Positions 17,879 to 28,399 of a stretch of DNA of 44,421 nt are shown in pieces. The translations under genes were made by a program, and so were the position numbers. The notes below the pieces were generated by a model, which was not told the DNA's origin, ran no database searches, and worked only from the letters and a program-made list of their open reading frames with translations. This DNA comes from Treponema sp. (GTDB lineage Bacteria; Spirochaetota; Spirochaetia; Treponematales; Breznakiellaceae), in assembly GCA_009787835.1 (NCBI GenBank), contig WQSN01000019.1:1-44421 (forward strand). The letters are read 5' to 3'. Position 1 is the stretch's first letter. Each line of letters starts with the position of its first letter.

Positions 17879-17907
17879 TTGACTAAATATCACATTTTTG
17901 CTAACTT
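17879..17907 (+). promoter_or_regulatory. Promoter of tRNA-Asp
   Basis: TTGACT (17879-17884), a 17-nt spacer and TAACTT (17902-17907), 11 nt before the tRNA. The same arrangement (TTGACT, 17 nt, TAAC-T) precedes tRNA-Cys, which strengthens the call. Confidence 0.7.
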
Positions 17908-17918
17908 GTAGAAACATT

Positions 17919-17993
17919 GGGGGCGTAGTGAAGCTGGTTTATCACGCTGGCCTGTCAAGCCGGAAATCGCGGGTTCGAGCCCCGTCGCTCCCG
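17919..17993 (+). tRNA. tRNA-Asp (anticodon GTC)
   Basis: The cloverleaf folds throughout: acceptor GGGGGCG/CGCTCCC (one G-U), D stem GTGA/TCAC, anticodon stem CTGGC/GCCGG with loop CTGTCAA, T stem GCGGG/CCCGT with loop TTCGAGC, and discriminator G. CCA is not encoded. A copy of its 3' end lies 185 bp downstream. Confidence 0.97.
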
Positions 17994-17998
17994 AAGTA
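17976..17998 (+). repeat. 23-bp direct repeat, copy within the 3' end of tRNA-Asp
   Basis: This 23-bp sequence, starting CGAGCCCCGTCGCTCCCG and covering the tRNA 3' end plus AAGTA, recurs exactly at 18161-18183. Duplication of a tRNA 3' end is the usual footprint of site-specific integration (attL/attR). Confidence 0.9.
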
Positions 17999-18013: not shown

Positions 18014-18160
18014 CAATTATTTAATACAGATGTTTCATGTATTAAATATTGCAGGGGGCTCGAACCGCAGCCCCCGCCGAAGGAAAAGGCAGCATGGATG
18101 CTGCCGTCAGGGGGCTGAGACGGCCTGTAGTGAGTAAACAGGATGTTTACGAACGAAAGG
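18014..18160 (+). other. Structured non-coding element behind tRNA-Asp
   Basis: No reading frame is supported, but nested perfect stems fill the interval. TATTTAATACA (18018-18028) pairs with TGTATTAAATA (18038-18048). GGGGCTCG (18055-18062) pairs with CGAGCCCC in the second repeat (18161-18168) and encloses the rest. CAGCCCCC (18068-18075) pairs with GGGGGCTG (18110-18117) around the hairpin GGCAGCAT/ATGCTGCC (18088-18095/18098-18105). GTAAACA (18134-18140) pairs with TGTTTAC (18144-18150). The left GGCTCGAACCGC is close to the reverse complement of the tRNA T-arm. It would be transcribed with tRNA-Asp up to the terminator at 18200. It could be a small mobile element, an integration scar or a structured RNA; I recognise no named family. 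Confidence 0.65.
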
Positions 18161-18183
18161 CGAGCCCCGTCGCTCCCGAAGTA
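18161..18183 (+). repeat. 23-bp direct repeat, downstream copy of the tRNA-Asp 3' end
   Basis: An exact copy of 17976-17998. Only the 3' part of the tRNA is duplicated; the rest of the cloverleaf is absent, so this is not a second tRNA gene. Confidence 0.9.
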
Positions 18184-18199
18184 GTAAAATAAAAAGAAG

Positions 18200-18223
18200 C
18201 CGTCCTTACGGACGGTTTTTTTT
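18200..18223 (+). terminator. Terminator or attenuator between tRNA-Asp and tRNA-Pro
   Basis: CCGTCC (18200-18205) pairs with GGACGG (18210-18215) around TTAC, followed by eight T residues. It lies only 6 nt before tRNA-Pro, leaving no room for a normal promoter between them. Expression of tRNA-Pro and proS would need read-through or a promoter overlapping this region (TAAAAT at 18185-18190 lacks a -35). Confidence 0.88.
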
Positions 18224-18229
18224 AGCTAA

Positions 18230-18302
18230 CGGGCAGTAGCGCAGTTGGTAGCGCGCTTGGTTCGGGACCAAGAGGTCGCCGGTTCAAATCCGGCCTGCCC
18301 GA
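18230..18302 (+). tRNA. tRNA-Pro (anticodon CGG)
   Basis: The acceptor stem CGGGCAG/CTGCCCG is perfect. The D arm (GCGC) and anticodon stem CTTGG/CCAAG with loop TTCGGGA give anticodon CGG. T stem GCCGG/CCGGC has loop TTCAAAT, and the discriminator is A. CCA is not encoded. The proS start codon begins at 18304, one base after the discriminator. Confidence 0.97.
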
Positions 18303-18303
18303 T

Positions 18304-20145
18304 ATGAACTACTCATGCTCCTTTATTCCAACACTCAGGGAAGTTCCCGCGGACGCTGTAATTATAAGCCACCGTCTTATGTTCCGCGCTGGAATGTTAC
18401 GCAAACTCGCAAACGGGCTATTTACCTATCTGCCGCAGGGACTGCGTTCATTCCGCAAGGTAGAGCAAATTGTCCGCGAAGAAATGGACGCCATTGGCGC
18501 TCTGGAAATAAAACCGACAGTAATTGTTCCCGGCGAATTATGGAAGGAATCTGGTCGCTGGGATTCAATGGGCGAATCCCTTCTGCGCCTTAAAAACAGG
18601 CTCAATAATGATTTTGTCGTCACGCCGACGGCGGAGGAAGCCTTTACCGCCATTGTACGCGACGAGCTTTCCAGTTACCGCCAGCTTCCGCTGACACTTT
18701 ACCAGATTAACACCAAGTTCCGCGATGAAGTGCGTCCCCGTTACGGAGTAATGCGCGGGCGTGAATTTGTAATGAAGGACGCGTATTCATATCATACGGA
18801 TGAAAAAAGTCTGGATGATGTTTATCAGGCGATGGGACGCGCTTACAGGAAAATTTTTAAAAGATGCGGGCTTTCTGTGATTCCTGTAAAAGCCGATTCA
18901 GGGGCTATGGGCGGCAGCGGTTCTGAAGAATTCATGGTAGAAAGCGAAATAGGCGACAACACGCTGATCCTCTGCAAAGATTGCGGTTATGCCGCCAATG
19001 TGGAAAAAGCGGCGTGCAAAAATGATTATACAATGCCGTCTTCGGTTGAGGATGCAAAAAAAACTGCGGCGGTTACTCCGCCATTTGAAAAAATTGACAC
19101 GCCAAATGTAAAAACTATTAATGAACTTTGCGTCTTTTTAAAAACGGAACCAAAATCATTCATTAAAACCCTTATCTACCGCGCGGTAAATGTTGAGCTT
19201 GATCTGTCCTGTGCTCCGGGCTGTTCACTGCTTGAGCAGAGCAAGCCTTTAACAGATGCTCCTTCAGTATATCCGCAGGCTTTCTTCGCTGTGGCAATCC
19301 GCGGCGACCTTGATGTGAACGAAGTGAAACTGGCATCCGTACTCAAAGCTTCTGAAGTGGGCCTCGCCGCTGACGCCGATGTAGTACGCCTGACAGGCGC
19401 TCCTGTGGGCTTTGCCGGCCCTGTAGGATTGAGCGGTTTACCGCTTATCGCTGACTTCAGCGTTACTGCAATGTCAGACGCGGTTACAGGCGCGCTGGAA
19501 AAAGATCTTCACTGCAAACATATAGCATACGGCCGCGACTTTGAGCCCTGGATGGTTGAAGATGTCCGTACGGTAAAAACGGGAGATCGCTGTTCAACAT
19601 GCGGCGGCGAACTGTATATAAAAATGGGTAATGAACTCGGACACATCTTTAAACTTGGAACAAAATATACACGCTCAATGAATGTAAGTTATCTCGATGA
19701 AAACGGAAAAAGCCGGATACCGGTAATGGGCTGTTACGGCATCGGCATAGACCGCACGCTCGCTTCAGTAATTGAGGAACACCACGACGATGCCGGTATA
19801 ATCTGGCCTGCCTCGGTCGCGCCGTATCATGTTATTATTGTTCCCATAAAGTACGAAGGAGAAGTAAAACTCAAAGCGGACAGACTGGCCGCGGAATTAA
19901 CAGATGCCGGTCTTGAGGTTTTACTGGACGACCGTAATGAGCGTCCGGGTGTAAAATTCAACGACGCGGATCTTACCGGTATTCCCTGGCGCGTGGTCAT
20001 GGGTGAAAAAGGACTTTCTCAGCCAATTCCACAAATCGAAATAAAACACAGAAGAGAAAAGGGAAACAGCATGATAAACCTGGACAAGGCAGCGGCGGAA
20101 CTTGCGCAAAAAATCAGGGAAGAGATCAATCAACTAAACAATTAA
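18304..20145 (+). CDS. proS: Prolyl-tRNA synthetase, bacterial type with editing insertion (613 aa)
   Basis: It charges tRNA-Pro with proline. The class II signatures are complete: N-terminal IPTLREVPADAVIISHRLM, motif 1 around GALEIKPTVIVPGELW, motif 2 KFRDEVRPRYGVMRGREF, the YbaK-like editing insertion (about 230-390), motif 3 MGCYGIGIDRTLASV and an anticodon-binding domain from IIWPASVAPYHVIIV on. Length is normal or slightly long for the bacterial class. ATG 18304 is the only start that preserves the conserved N-terminus. It lies one base after tRNA-Pro(CGG), so there is no Shine-Dalgarno and the tRNA itself is the 5' leader. RNase Z cleavage of the precursor would leave an almost leaderless mRNA, and the enzyme's affinity for that tRNA suggests feedback control; both are inferences. 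Confidence 0.97.
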   Translation: MNYSCSFIPTLREVPADAVIISHRLMFRAGMLRKLANGLFTYLPQGLRSFRKVEQIVREEMDAIGALEIKPTVIVPGELWKESGRWDSMGESLLRLKNRLNNDFVVTPTAEEAFTAIVRDELSSYRQLPLTLYQINTKFRDEVRPRYGVMRGREFVMKDAYSYHTDEKSLDDVYQAMGRAYRKIFKRCGLSVIPVKADSGAMGGSGSEEFMVESEIGDNTLILCKDCGYAANVEKAACKNDYTMPSSVEDAKKTAAVTPPFEKIDTPNVKTINELCVFLKTEPKSFIKTLIYRAVNVELDLSCAPGCSLLEQSKPLTDAPSVYPQAFFAVAIRGDLDVNEVKLASVLKASEVGLAADADVVRLTGAPVGFAGPVGLSGLPLIADFSVTAMSDAVTGALEKDLHCKHIAYGRDFEPWMVEDVRTVKTGDRCSTCGGELYIKMGNELGHIFKLGTKYTRSMNVSYLDENGKSRIPVMGCYGIGIDRTLASVIEEHHDDAGIIWPASVAPYHVIIVPIKYEGEVKLKADRLAAELTDAGLEVLLDDRNERPGVKFNDADLTGIPWRVVMGEKGLSQPIPQIEIKHRREKGNSMINLDKAAAELAQKIREEINQLNN

Positions 20146-25404: not shown

Positions 25405-26952
25405 TTACGGCGTTACACCGCCTGTAACAATTAATCTGCCGTCAGTAGCGGGAACAATAGGTCCTTTTTGCGCTTTGATATATTCGGTTACAGTATACGA
25501 AAGCAACAGGGATACATTGAAACGATCTCCCGCTTTTTTCATTACCTCGTAGCCGTCACCGCCTCCGAGGATATAATCATTGGTGCAGAACCGGTAGGTT
25601 TTATTCGGATCTACAGGCGCGCCTGCGATTGTCAGATCTTTAATCACGCCGCTGCCTACCGTTTTATCAATTGTGTAGCGGACATCGCTTGAAAACTGCG
25701 GAAAGCCGCCGTTACCCTGCGGGATTGTCGCGATAAAATTAAATAATTCGATAATATCAGAACCCGGCATGGAAACAACATAAAGATAATTTTCAAAAGG
25801 CAGAATTGTTAATATATGTTCTGTTGTAATGGGCCCTGCGGGAAGCTCGGCGCGCATGTTTCCGCCGTTATGAAAAGCAAAATCAATCTGCAGATTGCTT
25901 ACGGTTCTGAAAAACCAGACATTCGCGTCTGTTATCATATTGCCAAGCGCGGTTTCCTGATAACGGGTTAAACGGTTGCCGAATATGAAAGTATCCGCCG
26001 CTTCTCCAATTACCGCTTTAAGGGTCGCTCCGGCTTTTTCAATGTAGGGCGCAAGCATTGCCGTAACTTCCGGATCCGGGCCTATCGGAACCGGCGTCCA
26101 AATAAAGTCCGCAAGCTGCCTGCCGCGGATTAATAATTTTCCGTGGCCTACATATTTGCCCCATTCATTCGCGCTTACTATCCATGTCTTTCCCTGAACT
26201 ATCGGCTTATCCATGTAAGTATGGGAATGGCCGTCAATAATTATATCGATTCCCGGAACAGATGCAGCAAGCTCAACAGATGTAACATGATCCGGCATTT
26301 CCTTTACATTCCCAATATGGGTCAGGCCGATTACAATATCCGCCTTTTCAATGTTACGCAAAATGTTAACAACATCCCGTGCGGCTGTAATTTCATTGAT
26401 AAATACAAGTGACTTGTCAGGACTCGCTGTCACAATGGTTCTCAGAGTTGTAATTCCGAAAATGCCAACTGTTATATCGCCGTATTTTTTAATTATATAC
26501 CGGTTGCCGCCAAGATACGCGCCGTTTTGCGTCATGACGTTTGATGTAACAAACGGGAATTTAGCAAGCCTGATCTGCGCGTCAAGTTTTTCCTGATTAC
26601 CGTCAAACTCATGATTGCCGAAAGCGACCGCGTCATAACCCATGATGTTATACGCAAGAATATCCGGCTCCGCGCTGAACATATTTGAAAGGGCGCTTCC
26701 TGTGTTTATATCCCCCGCGTCAAGCAGAAGAACATTCTGATTTACGGCTTTTACCGCTTTTACATACGCCGATATCTCCGCGAGCCCTCCCCTGCCGCCG
26801 CTTGAAAGCGTCGCTCCGTGAAAATCATTTGTGTGAAGCAGCACCAGTTCAATTTCTTTCTCCTGAACGGGAGGCGCTTCCCGCACCGCAGACGCATAAA
26901 CAGCGCCCGTCAGCAGAAACACAGTCAGCAGAAAACTGCATATCCTTTTCAT
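25405..26952 (-). CDS. Secreted 5'-nucleotidase / 2',3'-cyclic phosphodiesterase family (515 aa)
   Basis: A periplasmic metallophosphoesterase that salvages nucleosides and phosphate from nucleotides (UshA/YfkN family). A signal peptide (KRICSFLLTVFLLTGAVYA) ends in a signal-peptidase-I type site. Metal-binding motifs follow: HTNDFHG, LDAGDINTGS, FGNHEFDGN, GLTHIGN and DGHSHTYMD. The C-terminal nucleotidase domain shows ALGNMITDAN, HNGGNMRAELP, ILPFENYL and GGGDGYEVM. Length is typical. Its ATG overlaps the stop of the CNNM-like gene by 4 nt (ATGA at 26949-26952), so the two are coupled. A strong terminator ends the unit. Confidence 0.92.
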   Translation of the reverse strand: MKRICSFLLTVFLLTGAVYASAVREAPPVQEKEIELVLLHTNDFHGATLSSGGRGGLAEISAYVKAVKAVNQNVLLLDAGDINTGSALSNMFSAEPDILAYNIMGYDAVAFGNHEFDGNQEKLDAQIRLAKFPFVTSNVMTQNGAYLGGNRYIIKKYGDITVGIFGITTLRTIVTASPDKSLVFINEITAARDVVNILRNIEKADIVIGLTHIGNVKEMPDHVTSVELAASVPGIDIIIDGHSHTYMDKPIVQGKTWIVSANEWGKYVGHGKLLIRGRQLADFIWTPVPIGPDPEVTAMLAPYIEKAGATLKAVIGEAADTFIFGNRLTRYQETALGNMITDANVWFFRTVSNLQIDFAFHNGGNMRAELPAGPITTEHILTILPFENYLYVVSMPGSDIIELFNFIATIPQGNGGFPQFSSDVRYTIDKTVGSGVIKDLTIAGAPVDPNKTYRFCTNDYILGGGDGYEVMKKAGDRFNVSLLLSYTVTEYIKAQKGPIVPATDGRLIVTGGVTP

Positions 26953-28319
26953 AAATTTTCTCCTTCTGATAATTTTTTTATTTCATCCGTTTTAAAAGCG
27001 GAACTAACGATGACTTTCACTTCCATGACGCGCTGCCGCGATACTTTTGTAACGCGGACTGTAAGATAATGCCATTTTAATTTTTCTCCGGCCCTCGGCA
27101 ATCTTCCCAGAGTTTCCATTATCCAGTTCGCAACTGTCGTGCCGGGAGGAGTATAGTCATTTTCATGACCGGCGGGAGTTTCACCTGCGTTATGCGCAAT
27201 TCCATCCGTTATTGTTTTCAGCATATCCTGAAAGTTAACGCTTCCCAGAACCCTGAAGCTGCCGTCTGCTGATTTTTTGACAGGAACCACAACCTCGTCA
27301 TGCTCATCCCAGATTTCTCCTACCAGCTCTTCTATTATATCCTCTATTGTTACAACTCCAATAGTGCCGCCGTGCTCGTCCACAACAACCGCCATGTGCG
27401 ACTGTTTTTCCTGCAATGTTTTAAGGAGCCTGGAAATCTTGATGTATTTAGTAATAAAGACAACCGGCTTTACAATCTGCGCTGGGCTTTTTAAACCCTT
27501 CATAACTTCATGGTAAAAATCCTTTAAAAGAATAATGCCTGTAATGTTGTCAATTGAATCCTGATAAACAGGTATCCTGGAAAAACCGGTTTGAACAAAT
27601 ATGCTGTCAATTTCCTCAACAGTGCTTGTTATGGAAACAGCCTCGACATCAATACGCGGAGTAAAAATTTCTGAAGCCTTCATGTCGTCAAATCCGATTG
27701 CCTGGCGAATCATATGTTCTTCATGAATGTTTATGCCTCCCTCCTGCCTTACTTCCCCCACAAATGTTAAAAGTTCATCTTCAGTTGTAGCGCGGTCCGT
27801 TTTTACAGGAAAAATAATCATCAAGAATTTTTTCCATGCTGTTGTGACAAAAAGAACAGGCGTTAACAGAAAAACAAAAAAACGTAACAGCGGCGCGGCG
27901 CTGATTGCTGTCTGTTCTGGAATTTCCTTTGCGAGAACTTTGGGCGAAATATCACAGAACAGCATGAGCAGAACGGTCATCACAAGAGTCGCGATACTGA
28001 CTCCTGACGGTCCGAAGATGCTGATAAAAAGAGCGGTCGCGATAGACGCTGAAGCGACATTAACCGCATTATTCCCGATGAGAACTGTAGAAAGAACCTT
28101 GTCATACGTTTCAAGCATTTTCAGGGCCAGACGCGCCCGCCTGCTTTTAACGGAGAGATTTTTTAATTTAATGCGATTTAGTGACGAATAAGACATCTCA
28201 CATGCGGAGAAAAAAACGGAAAAACAGAGCAATGTAACAAGCCCAATGATCATGGGAATGGAGTTTGTTTCAGTAATATGCGTCACAATTTGTTCCGCTT
28301 CTTGCTCAAGATCATCCAT
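26949..28319 (-). CDS. CNNM/CorC-family membrane protein (DUF21-CBS-CorC, 456 aa)
   Basis: A membrane protein of the CNNM/HlyC-CorC group, linked to magnesium or cobalt export. A DUF21 membrane domain (about residues 20-190, with FFSACEMSYSSLNRIK) is followed by two CBS domains (ITGIILLKDFYHEV; VVVDEHGGTIGVVTIEDI) and a CorC_HlyC C-terminal domain (LGRLPRAGEKLKWHYL). The chosen ATG, 28319, begins 8 nt after the 3' end of tRNA-Cys on the same strand, with only TATAATTT between and no Shine-Dalgarno. An internal Met23 also lacks one. Transcription therefore probably comes from the tRNA promoter, and processing would leave an 8-nt leader. The old name haemolysin C is misleading. Confidence 0.9.
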   Translation of the reverse strand: MDDLEQEAEQIVTHITETNSIPMIIGLVTLLCFSVFFSACEMSYSSLNRIKLKNLSVKSRRARLALKMLETYDKVLSTVLIGNNAVNVASASIATALFISIFGPSGVSIATLVMTVLLMLFCDISPKVLAKEIPEQTAISAAPLLRFFVFLLTPVLFVTTAWKKFLMIIFPVKTDRATTEDELLTFVGEVRQEGGINIHEEHMIRQAIGFDDMKASEIFTPRIDVEAVSITSTVEEIDSIFVQTGFSRIPVYQDSIDNITGIILLKDFYHEVMKGLKSPAQIVKPVVFITKYIKISRLLKTLQEKQSHMAVVVDEHGGTIGVVTIEDIIEELVGEIWDEHDEVVVPVKKSADGSFRVLGSVNFQDMLKTITDGIAHNAGETPAGHENDYTPPGTTVANWIMETLGRLPRAGEKLKWHYLTVRVTKVSRQRVMEVKVIVSSAFKTDEIKKLSEGENL

Positions 28320-28327
28320 AAATTATA

Positions 28328-28399
28328 AGGCGCCGATCAGAATCGAACTGATGCATAACGGTTTTGCAGACCGCTCCCTTACCGCTTGGGTACGGCGCC
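28328..28399 (-). tRNA. tRNA-Cys (anticodon GCA)
   Basis: Reading minus: acceptor GGCGCCG/CGGCGCC, D stem CCC/GGG, anticodon stem GCGGT/ACCGT (one G-U) with loop CTGCAAA, T stem ATCAG/CTGAT with loop TTCGATT, and discriminator U as expected for Cys. CCA is not encoded. The CNNM-like gene starts 8 nt downstream. Confidence 0.97.

Follow-up and report, generated by a model that had tools for sequence, protein, structure and literature searches.

A tRNA-Pro gene one base from the start codon of proS in a Treponema contig: a probable case of tRNA punctuation

In mitochondria, tRNAs punctuate the transcripts, and cuts by RNase P and ELAC2/RNase Z release leaderless mRNAs. In Escherichia coli, thrS carries a tRNA-mimicking operator, located upstream of its Shine-Dalgarno (SD) sequence and bound by the synthetase, and in the tRNA-tufB and metY-nusA transcripts the last tRNA is followed by a normal leader with a ribosome site. 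Here we describe a tRNA-Pro(CGG) gene separated by a single base from the ATG of proS, the gene for prolyl-tRNA synthetase (ProRS), in a 44,421-nt contig of Treponema sp. (WQSN01000019.1; hereafter, the window). The window is contig C19 of genome G000, a 3.08-Mb draft that is 96% complete with 8% contamination. We consider it likely that RNase Z frees tRNA-Pro and leaves a proS mRNA with a one-base leader, that is, tRNA punctuation as in mitochondria. The junction is composed as follows.

18230..18302, + strand: tRNA-Pro(CGG), CCA not encoded (ARAGORN; Rfam tRNA, 72.8 bits, at the same place)
18303..18303, + strand: single-base spacer T, the expected entire leader of the processed proS mRNA; T in 4 of 4 one-base copies
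18304..20145, + strand: proS, bacterial-type prolyl-tRNA synthetase, 613 amino acids (NF006625, 730 bits; cut-off, 558)

The ATG at 18304 is the first start of the open reading frame (ORF), with no in-frame ATG, GTG or TTG upstream, and the N-terminus of ProRS (MNYS..FIPTLRE) is conserved among relatives; therefore, the proS start is secure. Both the juxtaposition and the choice of 18304 as the only sensible start, as given in the initial annotation, are thus confirmed by ARAGORN, Rfam and the ORF. GGAG, GAGG and AGGA are all absent from the 4–11 nt upstream of this ATG, so that proS has the AUG start without SD that is expected of a leaderless gene. At the same time, the tRNA 3′ end adjoins the start codon, as in tRNA punctuation, and sets the expected cut at 18302/18303. 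An RNase Z gene (TIGR02651, 347.8 bits) is encoded in the genome, providing an enzyme that cuts after the discriminator base. Between 17700 and 18500, no T-box was found among Rfam matches to an E of 1, and of the known regulatory RNAs the two tRNAs of this interval alone reach the gathering score. ORFs of at least 100 amino acids starting within 8 nt of a tRNA occur in 3 of 46 tRNA contexts in G000, namely tRNA-Pro/proS, tRNA-Cys followed by a CNNM-family gene, and tRNA-Glu followed by a 465-residue ORF. A short gap is, therefore, not extraordinary by itself; what is extraordinary is that three further genomes have exactly this T-ATG junction before proS.

This recurrence was found in a search of 39 genomes of the genus, 38 of which have some proS match. 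The upstream region is readable in 32 copies: L001–L029 minus L025 (28 loci), plus L045 (G022), L200, L201 and L202. L025 and L030, which begin inside the gene, and L031, a repeat of L008, were left out. The tRNA-Pro/T/ATG junction is present in 4 of the 32, in four of the 39 genomes: L001 (G000), L016 (G007), L024 (G034) and L200 (G018:C15), with 77–79% protein identity. Its presence in four genomes excludes an assembly error. In three other copies (L007, L009, L045), tRNA-Pro lies on the same strand as proS, at a distance of 67–245 nt, and in nine (L002, L004, L006, L008, L011, L013, L014, L018, L202) tRNA-Asp, with or without tRNA-Pro, is divergent from proS. Neither tRNA was found in the readable upstream of the other 16, some of which offer little sequence to read (164 nt in L201). 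The same spacing, which the initial annotation had proposed to look for in relatives, thus exists in three further genomes and is lacking in 28 of 32 copies; given the other leaders of these 28, the junction is not a conserved regulatory device. Two draft genomes carry two differing proS copies each (L200 and L011 in G018; L201 and L009 in G006), representing either paralogues or contamination. With an E of about 1e-4, the matches in G009, G013, G033 and G036 are weak, and they resemble another synthetase. In these four and in G032, a bacterial-type proS was not clearly found by the genus search, and another ProRS type may serve; G009 and G036 are 94% complete.

In a maximum-likelihood tree of 43 ProRS proteins (partial L042, L025 and L030 excluded), the four junction copies are scattered, with L001 joining L007 and L015 (99/93); bootstrap values are rough and 18 of 40 inner branches are open. 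A single origin, with the four copies held together, is rejected by the approximately unbiased (AU) test (p-AU 0.0039). Therefore, the junction has arisen more than once, or has been repeatedly lost, or proS has moved between lineages. We also scanned 392 genomes of the phylum for proS starts that bear the (F/L)IPT motif and have a tRNA no more than 15 nt away; starts with a different motif would escape this pattern, and the sample holds only three genomes of this genus and neither G018 nor G034. Four genomes matched; G000 and G007 are real, and the strings in G155 and G364 look like chance by eye.

How, then, is proS led in the relatives? Upstream regions of 44 sequences (L200 not among them) were scanned for a −10-like box, defined as a TAnnnT-like hexamer that has A at position 2 and T at position 6, agrees with TATAAT at four or more of its six positions and ends 5–10 nt before the ATG. 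Excluding the one-base and the distant same-strand copies, the box is present in 21 of 25 copies of the genus, as compared with 2–10 of 25 (mean 5.5) in twelve equal control bins further upstream, the sequences being related. None of these 21 has GGAG, GAGG or AGGA 4–11 nt before the ATG. Three of the four box-less exceptions (L005, L015, L029) have an SD, and L022 has neither box nor SD. The three distant same-strand copies have an SD, to which L009 adds a weak box. Both box and SD are absent from L001, L016 and L024 in the scan and, by eye, from L200. In other genera, the box precedes 6 of 13 proS genes. These patterns suggest that proS is, in most relatives, probably leaderless through the position of its promoter and is otherwise SD-led or tRNA-abutted.

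A second junction of the same kind is found in the window, on the opposite strand.

28328..28399, − strand: tRNA-Cys(GCA), at the second tRNA-mRNA junction of the window (ARAGORN)
28320..28327, − strand: 8-nt spacer that separates tRNA-Cys from the ATG and lacks an SD
26949..28319, − strand: CNNM/CBS/CorC_HlyC-family membrane protein gene, 456 amino acids (Pfam PF01595, 136.3 bits)

We read 30 loci (L222–L251) from 30 genomes, of the 39 with some match to this gene. In 28 of the 30, tRNA-Cys lies 2–11 nt before the start codon of the CNNM gene, which is always ATG; none of the 28 spacers contains an SD, and T is at +1 after the tRNA in 17 of the 28. The two exceptions are L230, which begins inside the CNNM gene, and L251, which lacks the tRNA pattern. 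This conservation is the strongest support for the proposal that these bacteria can use starts that abut a tRNA and lack an SD. Across the phylum sample, tRNA-Cys is followed by an ATG within 15 nt in 20 of 392 genomes, with CNNM following only in G000, G007 and G010. In L252, L261 and L270, a different ORF of at least 80 amino acids begins 1–8 nt after a tRNA-like end. A third junction places tRNA-Glu directly before the gene of a 465-residue protein without Pfam match, with gaps of 6 nt in L168 (G000:C11) and 2 nt in L282 (G021:C8); beyond G000, it was seen in G021 alone among 27 loci, several of which are short or partial. We are inclined to think that the genus regularly relies on RNase Z cleavage after tRNA-Cys and tRNA-Pro, and at times after tRNA-Glu, to make mRNA 5′ ends. 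If so, the output of the CNNM-family protein, of ProRS and of the 465-residue protein would follow tRNA maturation, through leaderless or very short-leader mRNAs.

For proS, we propose the following pathway. One transcript would carry tRNA-Pro and proS. RNase P would trim the 5′ end of the tRNA, and RNase Z would cut behind the discriminator A, freeing tRNA-Pro, to which CCA would be added afterwards. The remaining mRNA would have a one-nucleotide leader, U-AUG, and would be translated as a leaderless message. Thus, the tRNA cut would take the place of the promoter as the maker of the proS mRNA 5′ end. The proposal is built on the anatomy, its recurrence, the lack of an SD or −10 box next to the ATG, and the RNase Z gene.

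As for the source of the transcript, four features lie upstream of tRNA-Pro in the window.

17879..17907, + strand: promoter-like TTGACT-N17-TAACTT upstream of tRNA-Asp (by eye; a strict consensus scan does not report it)
17918..17994, + strand: tRNA-Asp(GTC), the first gene in the probable unit (ARAGORN, Rfam)
18054-18178, + strand: copy of a structured element, between tRNA-Asp and tRNA-Pro
18199..18223, + strand: terminator-like hairpin (18199-18205 pairs with 18210-18216) plus a T run (sequence and fold; a scan reports the stem on the − strand only)

The T run stops 6 nt 5′ of tRNA-Pro, leaving little room for a separate promoter. The promoter-like sequence, similar to a TTGAC(A/T) plus TA...T found in L009, L016, L024 and L045, is the likely source of a transcript reading through to proS. 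Transcription in the window genome would, thus, probably start at tRNA-Asp and pass through the hairpin at 18199-18223, and partial read-through is likely to supply tRNA-Pro and proS. Similar hairpins are located 5′ of tRNA-Pro in many relatives, among them L009, L016, L045, L118, L119 and L131, and not in L024 or L013; in L013, L004 and others, a promoter-like sequence precedes tRNA-Pro instead. Even with tRNA-Asp about 1 kb away (L018/L132), such a hairpin directly precedes tRNA-Pro, possibly as a read-through control. In G018:C15, tRNA-Asp is divergent and TTGACA-N16-TATAAT precedes tRNA-Pro, so that tRNA-Pro and proS look like one unit there. An inversion remnant, in the form of an old, inverted proS promoter upstream of tRNA-Asp, was sought in five same-strand genomes and rejected, because shuffled controls did as well: of 200 shuffles, 26 to 165 scored at least as high as the real sequence.

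The structured element is an observation in its own right. It spans roughly 125–155 nt and covaries (loci L170–L199 and L305–L333). Thirty loci were first collected by DNA similarity, 24 of them with a same-strand tRNA within 400 nt upstream; 22 cores were cut and, with L172 and L179 omitted for their extra repeats, 20 were aligned. The resulting model has 31 pairs, 21 with compensatory changes. Part of the covariation in the closing stem (8 pairs) is built in, since matching to the tRNA T-arm was used to choose the core ends; the inner helices are free of this effect. The model matches 36 of the 39 genus genomes, with up to 18 copies each, and 81 of 118 genomes of the family, in 46 of 56 genera. 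Among the best copies of 29 genomes, 27 lie 24–274 nt downstream of a same-strand tRNA and end in a 12–14/14 copy of the 3′ end of that tRNA; the other two follow tmRNA and bear the tmRNA 3′ end. The left end is the inverted T-arm of the same tRNA (9–12 of 12 bases in the 22 cores), and at some loci the direct duplication is longer (80 bp at L177). Neither the window copy nor the element in seven further loci attains the gathering score of any Rfam 15 family; the overlapping matches below the cut-off are sraL for the window copy (17.6 of 39 bits) and sX4 for one in L196 (24.9 of 70). The element looks like a small, undescribed mobile element that targets the 3′ ends of tRNAs and tmRNA.

Could the abutment be irrelevant to the mRNA 5′ end? 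The start site of proS might lie inside the tRNA gene, where the T-loop TTCAAAT could serve as a poor −10, or translation might proceed from the unprocessed tRNA-mRNA. We regard this as unlikely, since L001, L016 and L024 have no hexamer 4–11 nt before the ATG that combines A at position 2 with T at position 6, the T-loop stretch is ordinary tRNA sequence (TTCAACT in L016), and the acceptor stem, folded just one base away from the AUG, would leave no room for SD-type initiation. More improbable still is a selected cognate feedback, raised as a possibility by the initial annotation, in which ProRS binds unprocessed tRNA-proS and represses itself, or tRNA-Pro maturation sets the ProRS level. The tRNA is indeed cognate, and the exact junction is shared by copies that are not a single clade. 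Nevertheless, 28 of 32 copies lack the arrangement, the better-conserved case, tRNA-Cys/CNNM, shows by its non-cognate partners that the arrangement does not depend on cognate pairing, and the thrS type of operator, upstream of an SD, has no counterpart here as no SD lies between tRNA-Pro and the ATG. Moreover, tRNA-Asp, with or without tRNA-Pro, flanks proS in the opposite orientation in 9 of 32 copies, so the cognate neighborhood may be inherited synteny. Of the interpretation in the initial annotation, the feedback part is thus disfavored, and the part in which processing yields a tRNA and a one-base-leader mRNA is the best supported, given the missing SD and box, the leaderless-type relatives, RNase Z and tRNA-Cys/CNNM.

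A neutral rearrangement is a serious possibility, which we place a little short of even: tRNA-Pro would have landed against proS several times, harmlessly because the start tolerates leaderless initiation, and processing would occur without being selected. As this explanation shares the mechanism proposed above and disputes only selection, the two overlap in probability. In its support, tRNA-Asp, tRNA-Pro and proS vary in order and orientation, and mobile-looking elements are found at tRNA 3′ ends, which are perhaps recombination-prone; on the other hand, an identical one-base spacing in four copies at 77–79% protein identity is tighter than neutral spacer drift suggests. Several points weigh against tRNA punctuation at proS itself. 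The junction is present in just 4 of 32 copies and, hence, is dispensable; most of the other 28 have an unrelated leader with the tRNA elsewhere, a finding that the initial annotation had named as contrary to its reading. The three short gaps in G000 could partly be compact-genome chance. The tRNA-Cys/CNNM leaders, at 2–11 nt, are short, not absent. A lone −10-like box counts for little in DNA rich in A and T, and the sequences, being related, are not independent; among 22 window genes, with a crude choice of starts, such a box lies 5–10 nt before the first ATG in three and an SD in nine. The hairpin between the only promoter seen in G000 and tRNA-Pro would lower proS expression unless read through. 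Finally, one survey gives leaderless genes an average share of 3.9% in those spirochaete genomes, 6 of 18, in which they occur at all (PMC3160421).

If the cut is real, production of an essential synthetase would be tied to RNase Z activity, and tRNA-Cys/CNNM would provide a widely conserved test case for leaderless initiation on 5′-monophosphate ends. The proS copies offer a natural comparison of a leaderless-type promoter, an SD leader and tRNA abutment before one gene. As in E. coli thrS, a synthetase gene is preceded by a tRNA shape, but here the tRNA is a real one, there is no SD and conservation is low. As in tRNA-tufB and metY-nusA, a tRNA and a protein gene would share one transcript, with tRNA abutment in place of the normal ribosome-site leader. 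Leaderless mRNAs of Mycobacterium, Leptospira and Propionibacterium have reported 5′ ends that are transcription starts (PMC4633059, PMC3848588, PMC5243855). The proS message would resemble these in its ATG start, lack of SD and a 5′ end expected at or near the AUG, and differ from them in that this end would be a tRNA processing site. The closest likeness is to mitochondrial punctuation: the start codon adjoins a tRNA, without an SD, and a 3′ cut of the RNase Z type would generate the 5′ end of the message. The differences are that this is a bacterium that also has SD-led genes (9 of the 22 in the window, by the crude count), that few genes are involved and that the cleavage is a predicted one. 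In the available parts of the open-licence literature (including PMC4681348, PMC4633059, PMC3848588, PMC3160421 and PMC5243855), tRNA punctuation is described for mitochondria only, although earlier bacterial reports may exist. A real cut at this junction would mean that a bacterium, too, makes mRNA starts by tRNA processing, in a manner that this literature, as far as accessible, describes only for mitochondria.
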